DNA of 56,622 nt from the NCBI GenBank assembly GCA_040880525.1, contig JBBDIG010000019.1, positions 95,116-151,737 of the forward strand. The letters are read 5' to 3'. The notes under the pieces were generated by a model. That model did not search any database, had not been told where the DNA came from, and saw only the letters and a list, made by a program, of their open reading frames with translations. Source of the stretch: Bacteroidia bacterium (GTDB taxonomy: Bacteria > Bacteroidota > Bacteroidia > CAILMK01 > JBBDIG01). Both the position numbers and the translations under genes were made by a program. Below are positions 2,394 through 56,622 of this stretch, in pieces (position 1 is the first letter of the stretch; each line of letters opens with the position of its first letter).

Positions 2394-3329
2394 TCATTTC
2401 TCTATCTTTTTCCGGTTCCACTTTGCGGTGTTTGCAACAGCTTCGTAAGTGGTTTGCAGAAAATCATGCAATGTCTGTCCTGGGTTTTCTGCTTTTCGCA
2501 CATCCTCATATTTTAAAAAATATTCTCCCATCTGAGCATCGTAGAATGCCTCCTTTGGTAAAACCTTTTGGGCGCCAAACTCAGGAGCTGCCGGATAAGC
2601 GTATGCGTAAAAGACGGGAATAGGAAAAGCTTTGCTCCCAAGCCAGAAACCCGCGCTGCTCACTTCCTGTGAATAGGCTTCCTGCATTACTTCCAATGAC
2701 ATGTTGGGTACTCCACCCGGATGCAACGGAGCCGCATTACCTGAAAACCGGGTAACAGCAAGGTCAAACGCTCCCCAAAACAAATGAACGGGACTGGCCT
2801 TGCCAATAAATTCACTTCTGAACTTATGAAAAACTCCATTCGCCCTAAGCATGGCCTGCCAAATAGAAGAAGATGCTTCCGGATCGTATGACTTGTTAAC
2901 GGTATTATCAGCAAATGGAATTGCCGGATCCACTTCGTTTGGACTCGGATGAATTTCTACATCAATGCCGATGCTCCTCAATTTATCAAACAATTCATGA
3001 TAGAATTGAGCAACCGTCATGGGTCGTAAATCCATTTCTGCCACGTCAGTGTCAGAACAGTGCATAAAGATTTTATGCTGTTTAAAATCAAAGTCAATTT
3101 GAAAAACCAGTCCCCGGTAAGGAATGCCATGTGTGGAAAATCCGGTAGATGTAATGTAGAGCGTGCAATGCCAGGAGTGATTTTGCCAGGGCATCGTCCT
3201 CAGCCGGATCTTTCCAACAATTTGAATCCATTGATGGAGCGTTTCGATGGTGTCCTGCATTTCAGGAAAATTAATCTCCGGCCATCTCGGAGCACTATTT
3301 TTATTTTTAGTAAGGCTGATCGCGTTCAT
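2394..3329 (-). CDS. DUF5996 family protein
   Basis: A 311-residue soluble protein recognised as DUF5996: WPEINFPEMQDTIETLHQW near the N-terminus, the PWQNHSWHCTLYITSTG strand pair, then HLFWGAFDLAVTRFSG and AFYDAQMGEYFLKYEDVR near the C-terminus. Function of the family is unknown. A TTG at 3356 would extend the frame by nine residues, but that codon lies inside a palindromic repeat; the ATG at 3329 is the likelier start. It lies 53 bases downstream of rsmE on the same strand, with the palindrome between or overlapping them. Confidence 0.8.
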   Translation of the reverse strand: MNAISLTKNKNSAPRWPEINFPEMQDTIETLHQWIQIVGKIRLRTMPWQNHSWHCTLYITSTGFSTHGIPYRGLVFQIDFDFKQHKIFMHCSDTDVAEMDLRPMTVAQFYHELFDKLRSIGIDVEIHPSPNEVDPAIPFADNTVNKSYDPEASSSIWQAMLRANGVFHKFRSEFIGKASPVHLFWGAFDLAVTRFSGNAAPLHPGGVPNMSLEVMQEAYSQEVSSAGFWLGSKAFPIPVFYAYAYPAAPEFGAQKVLPKEAFYDAQMGEYFLKYEDVRKAENPGQTLHDFLQTTYEAVANTAKWNRKKIEK

Positions 3330-3351
3330 GTGAATATCAATGTTTGTGTAT

Positions 3352-3393
3352 GGCAAATGTAGGGACGCAAAATTTTGCCACCCTACATTTGCC
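3352..3393. repeat. REP-like palindrome at the 3' end of rsmE
   Basis: A perfect 13-bp inverted repeat: GGCAAATGTAGGG at 3352-3364 and its complement at 3381-3393. The 16-base interval contains a second palindrome, GCAAAATTTTGC (3367-3378). The right arm includes the rsmE stop codon (3383-3385). The core, TAGGGACGCAAAATTTTG, has the form of short interspersed palindromes seen in many bacterial genomes. It could fold in the rsmE transcript, but no T-run follows, so it is not a standard terminator. Confidence 0.75.
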
Positions 3394-4093
3394 GGTTCAG
3401 CACATGGACCGCGGCTACGGCCATGAACGCTGCTGTTTCCGTGCGCAGGCGGGTGTCTCCCAGGCTCACTTCTGCGAAACCTTTTGCACAGGCCAGGGCC
3501 ACCTCATCAGGGGTAAAATCTCCTTCTGGGCCAATCAGTAGGGTGACATCTTTTCCTTTTTTATATTGCCTGGCAAGATGCTGCTCCGTACCCGTTTCGC
3601 AGTGGGCGATGAAACATTGCTCAGGATGTTCCCTTTCCAGATAATTTTCCAGAGGCATAATTTCATTAATTGCGGGAAGAAAAGCATTCATGGATTGCTT
3701 CATGGCCTCCACCACTATTTTGTGCAAACGATCGGGCCGTAATCGGCTGCGCTGGGTGCGCTGGCAATTCACAAAGCTGATCTCCGATACGCCAATTTCT
3801 GTGGCTTTCTCCAGAAGCCATTCTACCCGGCTCAGGTTTTTGACAGGTGAGAGCGCCAAATGGATATTGTAATGCCGCTCCTGCTGCTGCTCCAACCGCA
3901 GGTTTCCGATTTGCGCTTCCTTGCCGGCAACTGCCATCAACAGGCCTTTAAAAATGCTGCCTTTGCCGTTGGTAATGTATATTTCATCGCCAGAACGGAG
4001 CCGGAGCACTTTCAGGGCATGGTGCGTTTCATCTGCATTCAGCAGAAATTGATTTACATTAGTCGCCACATTGGGATCAAAAAACAGGTTCAC
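3383..4093 (-). CDS. rsmE: 16S rRNA (uracil-1498-N3)-methyltransferase
   Basis: A 236-residue SPOUT-class methyltransferase that modifies U1498 of 16S rRNA using S-adenosylmethionine. Seen: an N-terminal PUA-like domain (residues 1-70, HHALKVLRLRSGDEI), then the SPOUT domain with EKATEIGV, the SAM-binding knot sequences IGPEGDFTPDE and SLGDTRLRTETAA. Length is normal for the family. The start is GTG at 4093, giving MNLFFDPN, which matches family N-termini. Its promoter appears to lie inside the start of the divergent nhaC-like gene; the two start codons are only 18 bases apart. The stop codon lies inside a palindromic repeat. Confidence 0.95.
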   Translation of the reverse strand: MNLFFDPNVATNVNQFLLNADETHHALKVLRLRSGDEIYITNGKGSIFKGLLMAVAGKEAQIGNLRLEQQQERHYNIHLALSPVKNLSRVEWLLEKATEIGVSEISFVNCQRTQRSRLRPDRLHKIVVEAMKQSMNAFLPAINEIMPLENYLEREHPEQCFIAHCETGTEQHLARQYKKGKDVTLLIGPEGDFTPDEVALACAKGFAEVSLGDTRLRTETAAFMAVAAVHVLNRQM

Positions 4094-4111: not shown

Positions 4112-6052
4112 ATGACGACAAAATTAGAGAATCTGCTCAGGGCTGCGCTGCTCACCTTTCTGCTTGCAATACTCCCGGCAACAATATTTTCCGCTCCATA
4201 CCACAGCTTTTCTGCAGAGTTGCCAACCCGCATCGTGGGCAAAGCAAACGTGGAGGGCTCCATAGTCCTCCTAAATGCTGATGGAGCTGTTGCAGAAGCG
4301 ATTTCTGATACACTGCATTTTCAGGTCAACGGAACGGAAACGGCTGTTGCCGTAGTGAATGGAAAAGGAAACTTTTCTGTAACCGTTGCCGAAAGCCGTA
4401 CGATTACAATACAGGACCGTGAAGGCCATTCGGTTGAATTGCAGGTGACTTCGCTTCCCTTCTGGCTGAGCATATTGCCACCACTCATCGCCATTCTCTT
4501 GGCGCTTATTTTCCGGGAGGTGATTACTGCACTTTTCCTGGGCGTTCTCTCCGGATTATTAATTCTAAATGGGTTCGATTTCAGTGGCCTTATGTTATCC
4601 CTGCTGCGTTTTGCCGATACCTATTTGATTAATGCTATTTCTGATCCCGGACATTTATCGGTGATTGTATTTTCATTATTAATCGGGGGCATGGTGAGTC
4701 TCGTTTCCGCAAACGGGGGAATGACCGGGATTGTGAAACTTCTGACGCGCTATGCCAATTCATCCCGCAGGAGCCAGTTGGTGACCTGGTTCCTGGGCAT
4801 CCTCATCTTTTTTGATGATTATGCCAATACACTGATCGTAGGAAATACGATGCGGCCGCTGACTGACCGCTATAAGGTTAGCCGTGAAAAGCTTGCATAC
4901 ATCGTTGACAGCACGGCTGCTCCTGTCGCGGCCATCGCATTTATCACCACCTGGATTGGGGCTGAACTGGGATACATAAAGGAAGTGGCGGATGCCCTGA
5001 ACCTGCAGGAAAGCCCCTACTCTATTTTCCTCAATTCATTGAAATACGCATTTTACCCCGTTTGTGCGCTGTTTTTTATGTTAATGCTCATCCTGATGGG
5101 CCGGGACTTTGGGCCAATGCTTAAGGCGGAAAGAAAAGCAAGAACAGGAAAAGATGAAAAGCTGGATGCCACAGGGCAGCTGCAATCACCGGCAGATGAA
5201 GGCAGGCCCGAAATGCGTGCAGCATGGCTCAATGCATTCCTGCCGGTTTTTTCGCTGGTTGCTGTTGCCTTTGGTGCTTTGTTGTATACCGGGTATAGCG
5301 AATCAGTATGGAGTGATCCGGGTTTAGGGTTTCTCACCAAAATCGCGCTGACCCTGGGCGAAGCAGATGCTTACCAGGCATTGCTTTGGGCTTCGTTCCT
5401 GAGCCTGCTGCTGGCAATTGTCATTACTTTAGCAAGGCGGGTTATTTCACTTCAAAAAACAGTGGAAGTAATTACCGAAGGAATAAAATCCATGTTCATG
5501 GCCATCATGATCCTGATACTGGCCTGGGTGCTTGCCGCACTCACCTGGGAGCTGAATACGGCTCAGTTTATCGCGAGTGCATTCAGCGGAAATGTGAATC
5601 CACTACTGTTGCCTTTTATTGTGTTTTTAATATCCGCGATCGTTTCTTTTTCAACCGGCTCCAGTTGGGGAACTATGGCGATCTTATATCCGTTGCTTCT
5701 TCCTGTGAGTTATCAGCTTAGCCGGGAAGCCGGTTTTTCAGAAGACCAGACCATGGAATTGTTTTATGAAATCACATCCGTTATTTTAGCAGGGTCAGTA
5801 TTTGGAGATCATTGCTCTCCGATTTCTGATACCACCATTTTAAGTTCCCTTTCTACCTCCTGTTCGCACATAAGCCATGTGCAAACCCAATTGCCCTATG
5901 CCGTAACCGTTGCTTTGACGGTGATGGCAACAGGCCACCTTGTATCAGTGTTTATTCACATCCCCTGGTGGTTGAGTTATTTAATTGCTTTTGCCTTGCT
6001 TTTTTTAACGGCCCGGTTTGCGGGAAAACAAGTTGTTCCGCTCAGAAGTTGA
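4112..6052 (+). CDS. NhaC-type Na+/H+ antiporter with periplasmic N-terminal domain
   Basis: A 646-residue integral membrane protein of the NhaC (IT) superfamily, which exchanges sodium for protons. Seen in the transporter part: FFDDYANTLIVGNTMRP, DSTAAPVAAIAFITTW, FSTGSSWGTMAILYPL and FGDHCSPISDTTILSS, all typical of NhaC. In front of it, residues 1-28 look like a signal sequence or first membrane segment, and residues about 35-115 are a hydrophilic beta-rich domain (RIVGKANVEGSIVLLNADG) before the first clear transporter helix. The frame is open 84 codons upstream but overlaps rsmE; ATG 4112 begins the hydrophobic leader. Residues around 415-450 form a charged cytoplasmic or periplasmic loop (KAERKARTGKDEK). 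The exchanged substrate is inferred only from family. Confidence 0.85.
   Translation: MTTKLENLLRAALLTFLLAILPATIFSAPYHSFSAELPTRIVGKANVEGSIVLLNADGAVAEAISDTLHFQVNGTETAVAVVNGKGNFSVTVAESRTITIQDREGHSVELQVTSLPFWLSILPPLIAILLALIFREVITALFLGVLSGLLILNGFDFSGLMLSLLRFADTYLINAISDPGHLSVIVFSLLIGGMVSLVSANGGMTGIVKLLTRYANSSRRSQLVTWFLGILIFFDDYANTLIVGNTMRPLTDRYKVSREKLAYIVDSTAAPVAAIAFITTWIGAELGYIKEVADALNLQESPYSIFLNSLKYAFYPVCALFFMLMLILMGRDFGPMLKAERKARTGKDEKLDATGQLQSPADEGRPEMRAAWLNAFLPVFSLVAVAFGALLYTGYSESVWSDPGLGFLTKIALTLGEADAYQALLWASFLSLLLAIVITLARRVISLQKTVEVITEGIKSMFMAIMILILAWVLAALTWELNTAQFIASAFSGNVNPLLLPFIVFLISAIVSFSTGSSWGTMAILYPLLLPVSYQLSREAGFSEDQTMELFYEITSVILAGSVFGDHCSPISDTTILSSLSTSCSHISHVQTQLPYAVTVALTVMATGHLVSVFIHIPWWLSYLIAFALLFLTARFAGKQVVPLRS
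4119..4126 (-). promoter_or_regulatory. -7 box for rsmE
   Basis: Read on the minus strand this is TAATTTTG, a perfect match to the Bacteroidota -7 consensus TAnnTTTG. It would start transcription near 4112 and leave a leader of about 19 bases before the rsmE GTG. It sits within the first codons of the divergent antiporter gene. Confidence 0.5.
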
Positions 6053-11869: not shown

Positions 11870-12036
11870 TTTATTTTGTATTTTACTTTGTATTTAATTT
11901 CCTACTTGTAAGTGCTTTTCGGTTTCGCCACCTCCTCACCGGCCAACCTGCCAAAAGTAAGTAAAACTAACATTACCAAGTACTGGCTGCTAAAACAATG
12001 GGATTTTGTGAATGCTGCAGCGGACATCTGCTCAAT

Positions 12037-14091
12037 CTACCAGCCCAGGAGTTCCTCAATTTTCTTTGCCACTTTTTCAGCGCTAGGCAACATCAGTTTT
12101 TCCATGGCCACATTCAGCGGAACGGCCGGGAGGTCTATAGCGCCCATTGTCATGACGGGAGCATCCAGTTCTGTAAAGCAGTTTTCCTGAATGCGGCAGG
12201 CAAGCGCCTGGGCAAAGGAATTGTTCAGCGTTTCTTCGGTAAGCACCAGGCATTTGTTGTGGCGCCTGACAGCCTCGTACACCGCTTCATCGTCACATGG
12301 CACGAGCGTGCGCAAGTCAAGGATCTCTATCTGTCCGGGATAATTCTTAGAGGCATTCAGCGCCCAATGTACGCCCATCCCGTATGTTACGATCACGATG
12401 CTTTCGCCATTGTCAATCCGCTGCTGCCCTGCTTCCTGAAAAATGCGGGCTTTGCCAAAAGGAATGATGTAGTCCTCATCAGGCTCAGGCGATTTTGCGG
12501 CTTCGGTGCCGGGCACTTTGCTCCAGTAAAGGCCTTTGTGTTCCAGCATTACCACAGGGTTCGGATCGTGATAAGCCGCTTTCAGTAATCCCTTCATATC
12601 GGCTGCATTGGAGGGATAGGCTATTTTAATTCCCTTCACAGGGGTGATCACCGATTCATGACAGCCGGAGTGGTAAGGGCCTCCGCCACCATACGCACCG
12701 ATCGGCACCCGGATGATGGAACCTACCGGGAACTTGCCCATCGTCAGGTAACAGGATTTGCTCATCTCTGTGATGAGTTGGTTCAGTCCTGTAAATATGT
12801 AATCGCAAAACTGCACCTCTACAATCGGCTTGATGCCCACGGCTGCCATTCCTCCTGTAGAGCCAATAATGTATGCTTCCTGGATTGGCGTGTTGAATAC
12901 GCGGTCATCCCCGTATTTCTGGCCCAGGGTTGCCGCTTCGCGAAAAACGCCACCGAGGCGCTTGCCTACATCCTGGCCGTACAGAATGCACCTTTCATCA
13001 TCGCGCATCAGTTCGTCAATGGCATGAAGGGCCGCATCTACCATTATGGTTTTTTCAGCACCTGCCGGGGAGCGCTCGCCCTTTTCTTCGGTTATAGAAG
13101 TTGGCGCATACACATGATGCATGAGCGATTCAGGTTCCGGATCGGGCTCAGCTTTGGCGCGCTCAAAATCGCGGGCCACCAGCTTGATTGCCTCTTCATT
13201 AATTTCCGCCAAGTCGTCATCTGTAATCTCATGTTTATTTTTCAGATACGCCTCCATCCTGGGGATGGGATCGCGCTGCCGGTGCAGGTCGAGGTCGGCA
13301 TTATCACGGTAAAACTCCATTCGGACGCCTGACGTGTGGTGGCCCAGAAGCGGACAGGTGGCGTGCAGCAGCAACGGTTTGCGTTCGTTGCGAACATAGT
13401 TTATTGCCTTAAACATCGCCTCATAACTTTCGCTGAATTCGGTTCCATCCACCTTCATCCGGTGCATTCCTTTAAAACCAGCGGCAAATTCATAGGCATC
13501 CATCGCTGCCATTTCATCGCTCGTTACGGAAATTCCCCATTCATTATCCTGCACCAGATAGAGCACCGGCAGGTCGTTCAATACCGCCTGCTGAAACGCC
13601 TCGGAAACTTCACCTTCCGTAATGCAGCCATCACCGAGGGAGCAAAGCACTACAGGCTTTTCTCCAGCTTTCAGGAGGTTGCGACCTTCGAGGTATTTGA
13701 GGCCGTGCGCCATGCCTGTTGTAGGAATGGCCTGCATTCCCGTAGCACTGCTTTGGTGCGGGATGGTAGGAAATCGCGGATCGTTGCTGGAAGGATGCGC
13801 ATAGTAGCTGCGGCCGCCAGAAAATGGATCGTCACGCTTGGCCAGCAGTTGCAGCATAAGTTCGTAGGGCGTAAAACCCATCGCCAGTAAAAACGCATCG
13901 TCACGATAATAAAATCCGCCATAGTCGTGCGGTTTCAGTTGCAGTCCGGCAGCAATCTGTATGGCCTCATGGCCGCGGGCGGTGGCATGTACATAGTGCG
14001 TGATCTGCCGGTTGGCGTCATAGATCGCAAACATGGCACGTTCTGTACACATCAGGCGGTAAGCTTTCAGCAGCAGCTCCTTCTCAAGCAT
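12037..14091 (-). CDS. 2-oxoacid dehydrogenase E1, fused alpha and beta subunits
   Basis: A 684-residue thiamine-diphosphate enzyme in which E1 alpha (residues 1 to about 335) and E1 beta (about 350-684) are one chain, a common arrangement in Bacteroidota. Seen: the ThDP motif from GDGCITEGEVSEAF to VQDNEWG in the alpha half, and GGVFREAATLGQKYG, TPIQEAYIIGSTGGMA and PIGAYGGGGPYHSGCHE in the beta half. It would decarboxylate a 2-oxoacid and pass the acyl group to a lipoyl E2 partner. The similarity pattern fits the branched-chain (2-oxoisovalerate) type better than pyruvate, but the substrate is inference. No E2 or E3 gene is nearby. A near-perfect -7 box lies just upstream. Confidence 0.93.
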   Translation of the reverse strand: MLEKELLLKAYRLMCTERAMFAIYDANRQITHYVHATARGHEAIQIAAGLQLKPHDYGGFYYRDDAFLLAMGFTPYELMLQLLAKRDDPFSGGRSYYAHPSSNDPRFPTIPHQSSATGMQAIPTTGMAHGLKYLEGRNLLKAGEKPVVLCSLGDGCITEGEVSEAFQQAVLNDLPVLYLVQDNEWGISVTSDEMAAMDAYEFAAGFKGMHRMKVDGTEFSESYEAMFKAINYVRNERKPLLLHATCPLLGHHTSGVRMEFYRDNADLDLHRQRDPIPRMEAYLKNKHEITDDDLAEINEEAIKLVARDFERAKAEPDPEPESLMHHVYAPTSITEEKGERSPAGAEKTIMVDAALHAIDELMRDDERCILYGQDVGKRLGGVFREAATLGQKYGDDRVFNTPIQEAYIIGSTGGMAAVGIKPIVEVQFCDYIFTGLNQLITEMSKSCYLTMGKFPVGSIIRVPIGAYGGGGPYHSGCHESVITPVKGIKIAYPSNAADMKGLLKAAYHDPNPVVMLEHKGLYWSKVPGTEAAKSPEPDEDYIIPFGKARIFQEAGQQRIDNGESIVIVTYGMGVHWALNASKNYPGQIEILDLRTLVPCDDEAVYEAVRRHNKCLVLTEETLNNSFAQALACRIQENCFTELDAPVMTMGAIDLPAVPLNVAMEKLMLPSAEKVAKKIEELLGW

Positions 14092-14116
14092 GAATTCTTT
14101 CTTTTATTGAACCGGC

Positions 14117-14124
14117 CAAAATTA
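14117..14124 (-). promoter_or_regulatory. -7 box for the E1 gene
   Basis: The minus strand reads TAATTTTG, a perfect TAnnTTTG box. Transcription would begin near 14110, giving a leader of roughly 19 bases. No TTG at the ideal -33 distance was seen. A hairpin, ATGGACA/TGTCCAT at 14169-14188, lies upstream and could be a regulatory site. Confidence 0.5.
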
Positions 14125-14289
14125 GGGAAAATGCACAGCGAATGAGGCGTAAAGCGCAGGAACGTTCAATGGACACCCGGCTGTCCATCCTATTTAAGTT
14201 TTTAAAAAATGATTATTAATATTTAATAAAAAATAAATATATGCGAAAAATTAAATTAAGAAGAACAGTACCTCTTCGATTAATATTCA

Positions 14290-14928
14290 TTATTTCTTTT
14301 GAAAAATAAAAACCCGGTTATCAGTATTATAAATTAAATTCCAATTAAAATTAGATTCTAAAAATGTCATCGTTTTCTTGTGAAAAAAAGAAACATGAGC
14401 CCGGTCACGGGTATAATACCAATTCTTAAAAAGGTCAAAGCTTTCCCAGATTTCCGTCATCACAATTAAATATCCGTTTTTATTCAATAATAATTGCAGC
14501 CTTTTCATTTCGTTTGATGGATAAAAAAAATGTTCAAAACACTCTGTAGCAAAAATAAAATTGTAGGAGGCATCGGCATCCAGTGCAGGATAAAAGAGCG
14601 GATCATAATGGTCACATATAATGTCATGCTTTTCGAGAAGCCTCGATATTGTGGGTGCCGGGCCACAACCGAAATCCAGACCTCGCATCTCAGGGTTTAA
14701 GTATGGCAGAGCCGGATTCACCGCCCGGTTCAGAAAATTCACATACCCTGCCTGCTCTATTCCATTGTTATGCTCCAGGTATCGCTTCTTCTCCTCGGCT
14801 GCCGGAAGAAAATACTTCTCATCTGCATGAATCAGAAAACAACGGTCGCAAAACCAATACTTCCTGCTATCTTTTCCTCTGACCTCTTTCTTCAGATCCT
14901 GCGATAAACACAATGTGCAATGAGCCAT
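14290..14928 (-). CDS. class I SAM-dependent methyltransferase with zinc-ribbon-like head
   Basis: A 212-residue protein. Two cysteine pairs at the N-terminus (CTLC at 4-7 and CDRC at 27-30) suggest a small zinc-binding ribbon. The methyltransferase core follows: LDFGCGPAPTISRLL is the SAM-binding motif I, and FIFATECFEHF is the motif around the acceptor strand. The C-terminal part is basic and aromatic. This layout is shared by methyltransferases acting on sugars, lipids or small molecules (methyltransf_23 type), so the substrate is not predictable. It is preceded by a 252-base divergent intergenic region holding a hairpin and followed by an AT-rich 198-base gap. Confidence 0.85.
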   Translation of the reverse strand: MAHCTLCLSQDLKKEVRGKDSRKYWFCDRCFLIHADEKYFLPAAEEKKRYLEHNNGIEQAGYVNFLNRAVNPALPYLNPEMRGLDFGCGPAPTISRLLEKHDIICDHYDPLFYPALDADASYNFIFATECFEHFFYPSNEMKRLQLLLNKNGYLIVMTEIWESFDLFKNWYYTRDRAHVSFFHKKTMTFLESNFNWNLIYNTDNRVFIFQKK

Positions 14929-15002
14929 TCAAAATTAATTTTATAGGATAGGATTCTTGCCTGACGCAAAATTCGCTAACTAAATTAAAATAAGGCAACT
15001 AT

Positions 15003-15028
15003 GCTTTTGCCTGTATGAGAGCAAAAGC
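15003..15028. repeat. inverted repeat in a divergent intergenic region
   Basis: GCTTTTGC at 15003-15010 pairs perfectly with GCAAAAGC at 15021-15028 around a ten-base loop. No T-run follows on either strand, so it is not an obvious terminator. It lies between the divergent methyltransferase and serine hydrolase genes, where an operator would be expected. Confidence 0.4.
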
Positions 15029-15180
15029 CAGATAAGTAAATGCATAATTCGTTGTAGAAGCATGTGTTGAGATACGGCATCTTTAAAACAAAAACCCGGA
15101 TATTCAATTTCAAGGAAAAATTTTCGCTACCGGTTTCCGTTTCATCCGAATGTCTTTGCCACTACTCTGAAGTACAGTTT

Positions 15181-16218
15181 ATGAAAATGCTATTGCTCTT
15201 GGCTTTAATTGCCATACCCTTTTTCTGTAACGCCCAGGATTTAAAGAATAAACATTTGGATGAACTGTTCGACCGGCTGGAGACAAAGAACCAGGCTATG
15301 GGCAGCTTCAGCATTGCGGAAAAGGGTAAGGTTGTATATCAGCGGGCGTTTGGGTACGCCAGCCTTAATCCGGAGATAAAAGCGGATAGCACAACTCGCT
15401 ACCAGGTGGGTTCAATCTCCAAAACCTTTACCGCTGTTATCATCCTGCAAATGGTGCATGAAGGAAAACTCTCGCTACAGGAGCCATTGTTCAGGTTCTT
15501 TCCCAAATGGCCGCAGGCAGAGCAGATAACTATTGAGCAACTGCTGCGACATCGTAGCGGCATTCATAATTTCGGAGAAGACCGCTCAGAGAAATACAGC
15601 CTGGTGAATCCACAGACAAGGGAAGAGATCCTGGAAATCTTTGAGCAGGCTCCGATTGACTTTAAACCGGGCAGCCGTGCAGAATATAACAATGCCAATT
15701 ATGTGGTATTGAGCCTGATTGCAGAAGAAATTGACGGCACCTCTTTTACTGAAACCTTTCAGGCAAGAATTGTAAAGCCATTGCAGCTCCGGTATACTTA
15801 TGTGGGCCGGAATGCGGGACAGCCCAGCCATGAGGCTCAGTCGTATTATTGGCGAAGAGGCTGGCAAAAGCACCCGGAAGGAGATCTGTCAACACTCATG
15901 GGAGCCGGAGCGATAGTTTCTACGCCAGCAGAGGTGAACGTCTTCTTTGCAGCGATATTCAATGAGGAATTCTTCCCGCAGGAAATGATATCAAAAATGA
16001 TCTCCCTGGAAGATGGTTTTGGAATGGGTATTTTCCGCTACCCGTTTAACCACCGCTCTTGTTACGGTCATGCCGGCTCCATAGGCGCCTTTGAGTCCAT
16101 GGCCGCCCATTTCCCTGACGAAGAAATCAGTTTTGCCCTTTGCCTCAATGCTACACGAAGGCCACTGAACGATGTTTTGGTCGAGGCGCTGAAGGTTTGG
16201 TTTGGAGAGTTCGACTAA
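15181..16218 (+). CDS. serine hydrolase, beta-lactamase family (class C type)
   Basis: A 345-residue exported enzyme of the penicillin-binding-protein/class C beta-lactamase-like family. Seen: an N-terminal signal peptide (MKMLLLLALIAIPFFCNAQ, cleavage after residue 18-19), the SxxK motif in GSISKTF with the nucleophile serine, the YxN motif in EYNNANY, and HAG in YGHAGSIGAF in the place of the KTG triad. Members are peptidases, esterases or D-aminopeptidases rather than true resistance enzymes, so the substrate is open. The frame is open upstream to 15064, but the ATG at 15181 starts the signal peptide. The family's usual length is about 350-400, so it is complete. Confidence 0.9.
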   Translation: MKMLLLLALIAIPFFCNAQDLKNKHLDELFDRLETKNQAMGSFSIAEKGKVVYQRAFGYASLNPEIKADSTTRYQVGSISKTFTAVIILQMVHEGKLSLQEPLFRFFPKWPQAEQITIEQLLRHRSGIHNFGEDRSEKYSLVNPQTREEILEIFEQAPIDFKPGSRAEYNNANYVVLSLIAEEIDGTSFTETFQARIVKPLQLRYTYVGRNAGQPSHEAQSYYWRRGWQKHPEGDLSTLMGAGAIVSTPAEVNVFFAAIFNEEFFPQEMISKMISLEDGFGMGIFRYPFNHRSCYGHAGSIGAFESMAAHFPDEEISFALCLNATRRPLNDVLVEALKVWFGEFD

Positions 16219-53991: not shown

Positions 53992-54302
53992 GCAATCAAG
54001 TCAGCAGACCGTATCAACGCTTACGAAGTATTTTCCTTCTTTGCTGAGAAACTTGTGTTTACGGCTTCTACCGCTTAGTTTTGCTAAAGGTGATGGGATT
54101 AAGATACGCGCCCCAGGAGCGTGCCAGATCAGGGGTGTTCAGTATCCATTGAGAATATTGATATTTGAAGGTTGAGGGCTAAACTTGATAAAAATCACAT
54201 AATAACACCCTCAGTGGAGGGCTAAATGTGATAAAATGACATATATAAACAAGTTGTGCGTCAGCTAAAAAAACCACTAACCGAAATATTAAACCGTAAA
54301 CC
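53992..54302. other. 311-bp gap at the edge of the AT-rich region
   Basis: No gene. It contains two direct repeats with the sequence GAGGGCTAAA followed by a TGATAAAA-type stretch (54174-54200 and 54217-54243), about 43 bases apart. Near the end GTTGTGCG occurs at 54253-54260, 50 bases before the next start codon; it resembles the outer end of the attC-like palindrome found after the next gene. Composition changes to AT-rich from about 54.2 kb. Confidence 0.55.
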
Positions 54303-55544
54303 ATGAACAAATTATCAAAGTACATTTTGGGTTTGGCCCTTACATTAATTGGAGTAGTAACAATAGCAAAAACATCGTTTCTCGGTGGACTACTCATAAT
54401 TATTACCGGATTAAGTCTAATTCCACCAATATCAGACAAACTCATTGAAAGACTTTCTTTTCTTGCAAAGAGACCAGTCAGAATAGCGTTTAAAATAAGT
54501 CTTTTGATTCTTGGACTTGCTGTAACAGGTAGTACATTGGACAAGCAAGAACCTGAAATAAATAGCACCAATTTAGCTCAAGGTTCTGCCTCGGAAAAAT
54601 CTCCGTATCAGAACTATTTAAACGAAGTCGAAAAAAGAGTAGCCTCACTCCCCGAAGAACAAAAGGCATGGAGAAATAACAAATTGACTGAACTCAAGGA
54701 AATGAACACTTACAAATTACTTGTAGATAACGAAACCGTTTCAGTAGATTACATTCCTGTCCTAAATGCCATTTCTAACGGAATGACATACATAAGTTCG
54801 GAAGGATTTAGTGTAGATGAAGTAATCATCAAGCGACTTGAACAAATGACAAATGGAGACGAATTAGTAAGATTTTCAATAACCGTAATAGGACTTGCAC
54901 AACCACAACGCGGTGGCTTGACTAATGAAATCATTGATGTTTTCGTCCGCTACAAAAATCGCTACAAGTATTATGGTGAACCAAGTGTAGTATTCGATGC
55001 CGATGGCAAGCAGACAGGAAAAATAGAATTCAACTATGACTTGTCTTCGCTATTTGGTGTTATTGCCCCGACAAACAAAGAAGTCCTAAATGCGGTTTAT
55101 GAGGCTCGTTCAAAAGGACTATCCGTATGGAACGATGAAGGAGACTACACTTACAACTATATTGCTACAAAAAGAGGTTATAACGACTACTTGAAACGAA
55201 TTTATCCAAGTAGCCCATATTACATTGACGCAGACTTTGAATTATCGGCAACTCAACTATTCAAAGCTTATGACGACAACGAAGTTGCTGCCGATGACAA
55301 ATACTTAGATCGAAAACTAATGGTTCACGGTGTCATTGAAGACATTGGGAAAGACATCATGGGAGACCCTTATGTGTCTCTCGGTGTGGACTACTTACAG
55401 AGCGTAAATTGTTATTTCTCGGACGACAACATGAACGTCATTTCAAAATTGAGAAAGGGACAAAACCTGACCGTTATCGGAGTCTGTAAGGGGAAAACAT
55501 TGAACATTTCGGTTAGTTTGAACGACTGTATAATTTGGGAATAA
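54303..55544 (+). CDS. membrane protein with C-terminal tRNA_anti-like (OB) domain
   Basis: A 413-residue protein. Two hydrophobic segments open it (residues about 7-45, LGLALTLIGVVTIAKTSFLGGLLIIITGLSLI) and a third follows near 60-80. The long middle part is hydrophilic. The C-terminal 100 residues (ATQLFKAYDDNEVAADDKYL to the end, containing KLMVHGVIEDIGK and LRKGQNLTVIGVCKGKT) match the tRNA_anti-like/OB-fold domain, which is found at the ends of many accessory membrane proteins. No function is established. AT-rich codon use differs from the genes before it. The attC-like element follows 15 bases after the stop. Confidence 0.75.
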   Translation: MNKLSKYILGLALTLIGVVTIAKTSFLGGLLIIITGLSLIPPISDKLIERLSFLAKRPVRIAFKISLLILGLAVTGSTLDKQEPEINSTNLAQGSASEKSPYQNYLNEVEKRVASLPEEQKAWRNNKLTELKEMNTYKLLVDNETVSVDYIPVLNAISNGMTYISSEGFSVDEVIIKRLEQMTNGDELVRFSITVIGLAQPQRGGLTNEIIDVFVRYKNRYKYYGEPSVVFDADGKQTGKIEFNYDLSSLFGVIAPTNKEVLNAVYEARSKGLSVWNDEGDYTYNYIATKRGYNDYLKRIYPSSPYYIDADFELSATQLFKAYDDNEVAADDKYLDRKLMVHGVIEDIGKDIMGDPYVSLGVDYLQSVNCYFSDDNMNVISKLRKGQNLTVIGVCKGKTLNISVSLNDCIIWE

Positions 55545-55558
55545 AGAAAAAGCCGAAC

Positions 55559-55689
55559 GCACAACACAGGCTATAGCAAATGCGGGCTGAGTGCTTAAAT
55601 ATCAACATATTACAACCAATCAACTTTACGGTACGCAGACAAGAAATTGGTTTCTAATCCCGCACTTGCCATAGCCAAATCCGTTGTCA
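55559..55689 (+). repeat. attC-like imperfect palindrome between accessory genes
   Basis: Left GGCTATAGCAAATGCGGG (55569-55586) and right CCCGCACTTGCCATAGCC (55659-55676) pair at 16 of 18 positions. Outside them ACAAC (55561-55565) pairs with GTTGT (55683-55687), and an inner AACCAAT/ATTGGTT lies at 55614-55620 and 55646-55652. The left end GCACAAC (55559-55565) differs from the attC box RYYYAAC at one base; the right end GTTGTCA fits GTTRRRY less well. The next start codon is about 20 bases on. No integrase was found in the window. Confidence 0.5.
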
Positions 55690-55707
55690 CACATTTAAAA
55701 ACGACAC

Positions 55708-56610
55708 ATGAAAAGTAAAACGACAGCAGCATTATTGGCTTTCTTTTTAGGTGGACTTGGTGTTCACAGATTTTATCTCGGACAACCAATTTTGGGAATT
55801 GTCTATTTGCTTCTCTGTTGGACCTTTATTCCTGCAATAGTTGGCCTAATTGATTTCATAGTCTTGCTATCATATTCTGACCAAAAATTTAACTCAAAGT
55901 ACAATAAGTCAAGTATTCAAAAGACGAGACATTCAGAAGCTATATCAAATTCTGACAAAGGCAAAACGAACACCGATAAATTGGTTAATGTAACAAGTCG
56001 AAAAGTTGGTAATAACACAACGGAAATGACAATCGACCTTAATGAAGAAAACATAGTTGCACTTTTTAAGGAGAAACAAGAGCAAAGAGAAGCAGAAATA
56101 AAAAACTTCAACTATGTTCCAATGCAAATCCAGCGTCAAGGTATTCAACTTCTTGAAAGCATTAACATATTAAACACAACGAAAAGTATTGACACATTAA
56201 TTGGACGATATGAGTTTATTTCTAACATGTATGACAACTTTGTAAAAGCCTCCTACAATAAAAGGTATATTTCTGATATTCAAGTGGCAATTGACCAATA
56301 CAAGTCAATGTACTATGATAGAATTTTAAAAGACTACGAACTTCAACTTTTAGTACAACCAGAGCACGAAAAATTAACCGACTACTATTCTGACTGCCTT
56401 TTCAACTGTTTCAATGGATTTTACAAAGAGCAAAAAGAACAGATTGAAACCCTTAAAAGAGACGATGCAAAGCAAAGAAGAAAAGAAAAGATTATTGAAG
56501 TAGCGGATAATACAATATCAGAGTTCGACAAAAACGGCTCAGACAATGACCGATTTAAGCCTTTATTATGTCTTAGCCCCCTAATAAGCTGGAGTAAAAT
56601 CACATTTTAA
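55708..56610 (+). CDS. TM2-domain protein, possibly truncated
   Basis: A 300-residue protein that begins with a TM2 domain (residues about 1-60): AALLAFFLGGLGVHRFYLGQ and LLLCWTFIPAIVGLIDFIVLL are the two membrane segments with the signature GVHRFYLG. The remainder is hydrophilic and helical (residues 75-270), ending with coiled-coil-like KEQKEQIETLKRDDAKQRRKEK. The last 25 residues turn abruptly hydrophobic (LLCLSPLISW), and the DNA there has AAAATCACAT, similar to the 54.2-kb direct repeats. This may mark an insertion that replaced the real C-terminus. TM2 function is not proven. Confidence 0.7.
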   Translation: MKSKTTAALLAFFLGGLGVHRFYLGQPILGIVYLLLCWTFIPAIVGLIDFIVLLSYSDQKFNSKYNKSSIQKTRHSEAISNSDKGKTNTDKLVNVTSRKVGNNTTEMTIDLNEENIVALFKEKQEQREAEIKNFNYVPMQIQRQGIQLLESINILNTTKSIDTLIGRYEFISNMYDNFVKASYNKRYISDIQVAIDQYKSMYYDRILKDYELQLLVQPEHEKLTDYYSDCLFNCFNGFYKEQKEQIETLKRDDAKQRRKEKIIEVADNTISEFDKNGSDNDRFKPLLCLSPLISWSKITF

Positions 56611-56622
56611 TTTAGGTCTGCT

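Follow-up and report, generated by a model that had tools for sequence, protein, structure and literature searches.

Towards the end of the stretch of DNA analyzed here (the window, 56,622 nucleotides of contig JBBDIG010000019.1 from a Bacteroidia bacterium), a long imperfect palindrome lies between two genes, which raises the question of what kind of element it is. A preliminary description, made from the letters of the window, had likened it to an integron attC site and had suggested a cassette array.

Structure of the palindrome

The palindrome is real and spans positions 55557 to 55691 of the plus strand. Its left stem arm (GGCTATAGCAAATGCGGG, 55569-55586) and right stem arm (CCCGCACTTGCCATAGCC, 55659-55676) are Watson-Crick paired at 16 of 18 positions, the exceptions being stem positions 7 and 12, where the left arm carries A (A.C on the top strand, T.G on the bottom strand). 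The outer boxes contain ACAAC (55561-55565) and GTTGT (55683-55687). The former belongs to an inverse core box, R''-like, that reads ACGCACAAC (55557-55565), and the latter to a core box, R'-like, that reads GTTGTCACA (55683-55691), whose part 3' of the first G is already the following cassette. The upstream gene stops at 55544 and the downstream gene starts at 55708. The paired arms, the ACAAC/GTTGT ends and the location between two genes are thus as the preliminary description had reported them. It had also placed the boxes near the integron core; the GTT is indeed constant throughout the family of sites described below, but the RRRY that follows it in the integron consensus GTTRRRY is not kept, the window box being GTTGTCA.

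The paired-arm pattern matched once in the window against 0.00 expected, none of 100 window shuffles containing it. The single-strand folding proposed earlier gave -25.1 kcal/mol for the bottom strand (z = -3.94, a value that none of 200 shuffles reached) and -19.3 kcal/mol for the top strand (z = -2.40). Taken together, the shuffle counts and the fold z-scores indicate that the palindrome is not due to chance. Other inverted repeats in the region were discarded because they looked like chance.

Conservation and distribution of the site family

A covariance model was built from an alignment of 46 sites, that of the window among them. The alignment contains an 18-pair stem; at seven of the pairs, one or more sequences carry compensated changes. 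The pairs at positions 7 and 12 remain G-T on the bottom strand, and variants with changed neighboring pairs still keep both wobbles. Among ungapped stems, the A/G asymmetry was found at position 7 in 57 of 64 and at position 12 in 59 of 64. The two non-Watson-Crick positions of the window stem are therefore a conserved asymmetry of the family and not random decay. For their part, 81 stems were free of bulges and 27 had one bulged base on the left arm (position 6-7), the bulged stems shown being mostly from Christiangramia echinicola. Since about a third of the classified stems have a bulge, the wobble mark is not universal.

The bottom strand was the more stable one in 134 of 145 sites, and it may be the strand recombined by an integrase. 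Similarly, among array sites without the 18-mer used for recruitment, it was the more stable in 77 of 85 (Wilcoxon p 1.8e-14).

A species-level genome collection contains the left 18-mer of the palindrome in 55 stretches, almost always as part of a whole element of ~140 bp. These stretches were mostly from Bacteroidota, with some from Chlorobi, Balneola, Melioribacteraceae and Neomarinimicrobiota. Of 148 Bacteroidota genomes sampled evenly, 47 had sites, either single or in same-orientation arrays. The genome of the window itself gave six covariance-model matches and contains three close copies of the window site, all near contig ends, which suggests that arrays of these sites broke the assembly. 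The search for further copies that had been called for was thus successful both in this genome and well beyond it. Sites of this genome were also noted on its contigs C19 (position 88820), C45, C46 and C55, several near contig ends. No site of the family was found in the phage records searched. One predicted viral contig (IMG/VR, 29 kb; L071:9168-9302) holds a site, which may be phage-borne or host contamination, and among plasmid records a close copy of the long attC was found on a Persicobacter psychrovividus plasmid alone (NZ_AP025294.1, 326520-326644).

Cassette arrays and box exchange

The covariance-model search revealed same-orientation arrays with cassette-typical spacing, with 34 matches genome-wide in C. 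echinicola. The median cassette length was 881 bp, and the longest open reading frame lay in the orientation of the site in 57 of 64 cassettes. The proteins encoded are diverse: 62 of them matched 53 Pfam families, and each of the 25 families listed occurs once.

In integrons, a cassette starts with bases complementary to the outer box of the site that it carries, since the two derive from a single circular molecule. In the arrays, the right box of one site and the left box of the next were identical (6/6 beyond GTT) in 44 of 64 consecutive pairs and matched at at least 5/6 in 53, compared with 4.1 on average and 11 at most under shuffled pairing; the 11 pairs below 5/6 count against a platform that exchanges boxes. 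The left and right boxes of one and the same site agreed in only 9 of 84 cases. In a second, later set of loci, neighboring boxes matched in 14 of 25 pairs (shuffles: mean, 1.3; maximum, 6). The arrays thus have a hairpin site after the gene and boxes common to neighbors through a circular form, as integrons do.

The integrase linked to the arrays

A tyrosine integrase adjoins the arrays in two layouts, upstream and co-directional or divergent. In each of the 16 site-integrase pairs that lie within 25 kb of an N-terminally extended integrase, the sites were downstream in the same orientation. A second group, of short integrases, had its sites at the opposite side and directed away from the gene, which is the arrangement of classical integrons. 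Across the 148 genomes, sites and a strong integrase match co-occurred with p 7e-7 (N-extended integrases) and 5e-9 (any), although 15 of the 47 genomes with sites had no strong integrase match and 18 genomes had an integrase and no detected sites.

In 8 of 11 co-directional loci, the first cassette, with a box matching at 9/9 positions, started 24 to 133 bp after the integrase stop, which locates attI there. In three divergent loci, attI lay 79 to 167 bp from the integrase start. As in integrons, attI is thus found beside the integrase gene.

The catalytic R, K, HxxR, H and Y columns were invariant in the 23 integrases aligned, as expected of tyrosine recombinases. The distance between KxxKDR and HxLRH was 58 to 63 residues in the array-linked integrases versus 100 in four canonical IntI, and the IntI-specific insert near patch III, a mark of integron integrases, is absent from them. 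None reached the TIGR02249 cut-off, and in a tree the IntI rows formed their own clade (100/100) with the array-linked integrases outside. The search for a tyrosine integrase of the integron type, suggested by the preliminary description, therefore yielded a related tyrosine recombinase beside the arrays, although one without the IntI-specific insert. At low thresholds, TIGR02249 was uninformative as an integrase detector and was set aside, since Xer proteins match it everywhere.

These results bear on a first alternative, in which the palindromes are attC sites of the ordinary kind on which a canonical IntI acts in trans, and the insert-less integrase next to them is an unrelated Xer-like enzyme. 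The site architecture is attC-like, and genomes of Chlorobi and Balneola do combine a canonical IntI with a site-like stretch. However, no canonical IntI above the curated TIGR02249 cut-off was found in 19 Bacteroidota array genomes (G040-G061), nor any in 40 relatives, and the covariance model found no site of the family beside the four canonical IntI genes of Chlorobi and Balneola (L115-L118). It is the insert-less integrase that adjoins the arrays in consistent layouts, with attI at its end, and we regard movement by a canonical IntI as improbable. One Balneola genome appears to hold both kinds of integrase.

Most co-directional integrases begin with one or two units of ~70 residues, predicted to fold as beta-beta-alpha-beta-beta-alpha (pLDDT 88.6). 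The top Pfam match of the unit was HARP (E 0.006 and 0.021, short of the curated cut-off), and the top PDB profile match was the HARP domain of SMARCAL1 (E 0.018). A fold search with the domain gave nothing below E 0.1, with XPB, SMARCAL1 HARP and MutS in the top ten, all as weak matches. XPB, HARP and MutS domains bind DNA structures. We put forward, as a lead only, the hypothesis that the predicted N-terminal domain is HARP-like. It is absent from the divergently oriented integrases and thus not essential to the whole system.

A decayed platform in the window

The window contains no integrase gene, as had been noted before, but a trace of one is present. Positions 54136 to 54258 align with the integrase 3' end and attI of contig C45 of the same genome (75% identity, E 4e-16). 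The integrase remnant covers 29 bp of the plus strand (54140-54168; CAG TAT CCA TT. GAG AAT ATT GAT ATT TGA), with a one-base deletion that breaks the frame. It is followed by an attI-like site (54169-54253, plus strand), which aligns with attI on contigs C45 and C55 (ATATATAAAC.AGTTGTG), contains imperfect direct repeats at 54171-54193 and 54214-54236, and has its putative crossover point G|TT at 54253.

At this point lies the left boundary box of a first cassette (GTTGTGCGT, 54253-54261, plus strand). The box is the exact reverse complement, at 9/9 positions, of that at 55557-55565, and cassette 1 is thus complete (54254-55683, plus strand), with matching boxes at G|TT on both sides and the palindrome as its attC-like recombination site (plus strand in the family alignment A1). 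Its gene (54303-55544, plus strand) encodes 413 amino acids with a C-terminal tRNA_anti-like (OB-fold) domain (Pfam PF12869, E 1.9e-21). Relatives of the gene in 296 genomes matched through the C-terminal domain only, and movement of the cassette could not be traced.

Cassette 2 begins at the core box and is incomplete (55684-56568, plus strand), its attC lying outside the window. Its gene, from 55708 onward, encodes a TM2 domain (PF05154, E 2.3e-19). The last 54 bp of the window (56569-56622, no strand assigned) are a repeated sequence, of which contigs C50 and C52 have identical copies (52 to 54 bp) at their ends and C4 contains one; they are probably the end of an insertion sequence that interrupts the TM2 gene.

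Contig C45 carries a broken integrase with the N-terminal domain, followed by attI, a gene and a site, and contig C55 likewise ends in attI. Together with the remnant in the window, this indicates several decayed platforms in the genome. As the genome holds only remnants of integrases of this family, the copy in the window may no longer be active, barring an integrase that acts in trans. On contig C6 (L074, G000:C6:42000-50031), a C-terminal integrase fragment occurs twice (3292-3610 and 5682-5990), each time followed by an attI-like end and a gene, and several similar fragments were noted in genome G001. Solo attI platforms may be duplicated or mobile.

Movement of cassettes and resistance genes

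If the sites delimit cassettes, the same cassette should be found in different places with breakpoints at the core box. One cassette, 99.8% identical, was found at attI in one genome, and in a Petrimonas bin and in Brumimicrobium oceani it stands behind attC sites that differ; the identity runs from GTT to the next GTT. An array of Allomuricauda contains a 551-bp cassette twice, with the same GTT edges. The first cassettes common to Algoriphagus and Cyclobacterium start at the core box, and so do those common to two Psychroflexus genomes. Together with the box exchange between neighbors, these identical cassettes with GTT breakpoints support the cassette array that had been suggested from the window alone.

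Resistance genes were found in the same setting. In a complete Bacteroidota genome, three genes come after an integrase remnant and attI, namely tet(X), one for a class D beta-lactamase, and aadS (locus L159, G129:C1:805500-825400, positions 11887-15216, minus strand), each with its own attC and with boxes matching at 9/9 positions. A tet(X2) cassette occurs with the same edges, exactly from the G of GTT to the next GTT, in the 11 plasmid records listed, from Bacteroides, Myroides, Riemerella, Sphingobacterium and Empedobacter; in the five records read, its neighbors differ on the left or on the right. Both the tet(X2) and the aadS cassette thus recur in other Bacteroidota with GTT breakpoints and different neighbors (plasmid loci L161-L165). 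On the Acinetobacter indicus plasmid p80-1-2-tetX3 (L147:3552-4407), the 'tyrosine recombinase' that precedes tet(X3) is a 221-residue C-terminal piece of the integrase family, with an attI-like end behind it. A full tet(X3) cassette was rejected there, since the downstream half does not fit, and the resemblance is limited to the attI side.

The moved cassettes also speak to a second alternative, that the palindromes mark the ends of transposable elements, or of non-autonomous repeats, and lie between genes by accident. The palindromes are indeed repeated and break assemblies, but the moving unit is a gene plus its site rather than the site alone, its boundaries lie at the core box, and the terminal box differs from cassette to cassette, whereas transposon ends would be constant. 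The box exchange contradicts this alternative as well, which leaves very little probability for such elements. A role of the hairpins as transcription terminators or as regulatory RNA elements is equally hard to credit: they do lie just 3' of genes (median, 21 bp from the stop to the end of the inverse core), but a search of the palindrome against Rfam matched no family, the better-folding strand is the bottom (antisense) one, and box exchange between neighbors would be meaningless for a terminator; the GTT breakpoints of the moved cassettes speak against it too.

Comparison with known systems

The Bacteroidota arrays resemble integrons in several ways. Their cassettes comprise one or few genes, point the same way and have a hairpin site behind the gene; boxes are exchanged at G|TT, attI lies next to the integrase gene, and the bottom strand folds better. 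Other features set the arrays apart. First, the array-linked integrase is without the IntI-specific additional domain, described as a defining characteristic that is necessary for integron recombination (PMC9668308). Second, most of the hairpins, including that of the window, are without the two extrahelical bases described for attC (PMC3053210). Third, the core box is GTT but not GTTRRRY. Fourth, there are two layouts, with the integrase upstream and co-directional in one and divergent in the other. An integron-like subgroup of tyrosine recombinases in which the IntI-specific domain is not fully conserved has been reported, the insertion being regarded as essential for integron function (PMC8138268); unlike that subgroup, the insert-less members found here adjoin cassette arrays.

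The arrays also resemble the recombinase-associated acquired interbacterial defence (rAID) clusters of Bacteroidales, the biogenesis of which was called unresolved in a preprint (PMC12247911). In both, a tyrosine recombinase of related type precedes a row of short genes that share one orientation and have conserved motifs between them, but the rAID sites are about half as long, with the core (A/G)TTA, and the cargo consists mostly of immunity genes. Intact relatives of the window platform share this arrangement, of which the window keeps only the integrase remnant, and the window cargo encodes tRNA_anti-like and TM2 domains rather than orphan immunity genes. On a Bacteroides ovatus BFG-107 plasmid (L148:7977-17056), an integrase relative heads an immunity-gene cluster, and its intergenic motifs of ~70 bp gave 7 of 12 perfect matches in the box test and 9 of 12 at at least 4/5. 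Our reading of this cluster as rAID comes from its content and the published description (PMC12247911).

In Riemerella anatipestifer, attC-like stem-loops have been described after aph(3')-IVb, which integrates with 27-bp 5' and 140-bp 3' regions and no flanking homology (PMC13148043). The authors suggested site-specific recombination on the attC-like structure and named no integrase or platform (PMC13148043). As described, these stem-loops would be in keeping with the Bacteroidota cassette sites. Finally, tyrosine recombinases linked to IS91-type transposases have the same catalytic fold and likewise no insert; they differ in their link to a transposase and, in the one example read, by the lack of an N-terminal extension.

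Discussion

The palindrome is very probably the attC-like site that ends a gene cassette within a Bacteroidota platform of the integron type, which has decayed in the window. Array structure, box exchange, attI position, integrase linkage, the breakpoints of moved cassettes and the folding asymmetry, all of them features of the sequences themselves, point in this direction. The preliminary description had named three findings that would speak against its reading: a hairpin without extrahelical bases, no copies elsewhere and no integrase. The first is what was found, whereas both copies and an adjacent integrase exist elsewhere. From sequence comparison, the platform would work like an integron, yet it is better described as a variant than as a canonical integron, since the IntI-specific domain, the extrahelical bases and GTTRRRY were looked for and are lacking.

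We propose that the tyrosine integrase encoded beside an array would recognize the hairpin as folded from the bottom strand, cleave the outer box at G|TT and join circular cassettes into the attI next to its own gene, and we infer that it is this array-linked enzyme that catalyzes the recombination. The substrate would be single-stranded DNA, in which the recombining strand would be marked mainly by the two positions that are G.T on the bottom and A.C on the top strand rather than by extrahelical bases, and the N-terminal domain would bind the hairpin. Decay in the window has left the integrase remnant, attI, cassette 1 with its site and the start of cassette 2.

A wider proposal, which we advance tentatively and rate at somewhat less than even, is that of a second integron lineage in the Bacteroidota, in which an Xer-like integrase took up folded single-stranded sites without the IntI insert. 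A HARP/XPB-DRD-like N-terminal domain would, in many members, recognize the hairpin or strand junction, and the G.T wobbles would tell the strands apart. This lineage would also have assembled the rAID clusters and first mobilized tet(X), aadS and other resistance genes.

IntegronFinder requires a tyrosine-recombinase profile that overlaps the profile of the IntI-specific domain (PMC9668308) and should thus miss these integrases. The platform would account for the repeated occurrence of tet(X) and aadS, with unchanged edges, in unrelated plasmids of the Bacteroidota, and it offers a mechanism for the formation of rAID immunity arrays, the process called unresolved in PMC12247911. Integron-type recombination and the IntI-specific domain, thought to be inseparable, would come apart. 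If the platforms are active, they would constitute a common gene-capture system in a large phylum abundant in the human gut, one that the open-access literature has so far seen in pieces.
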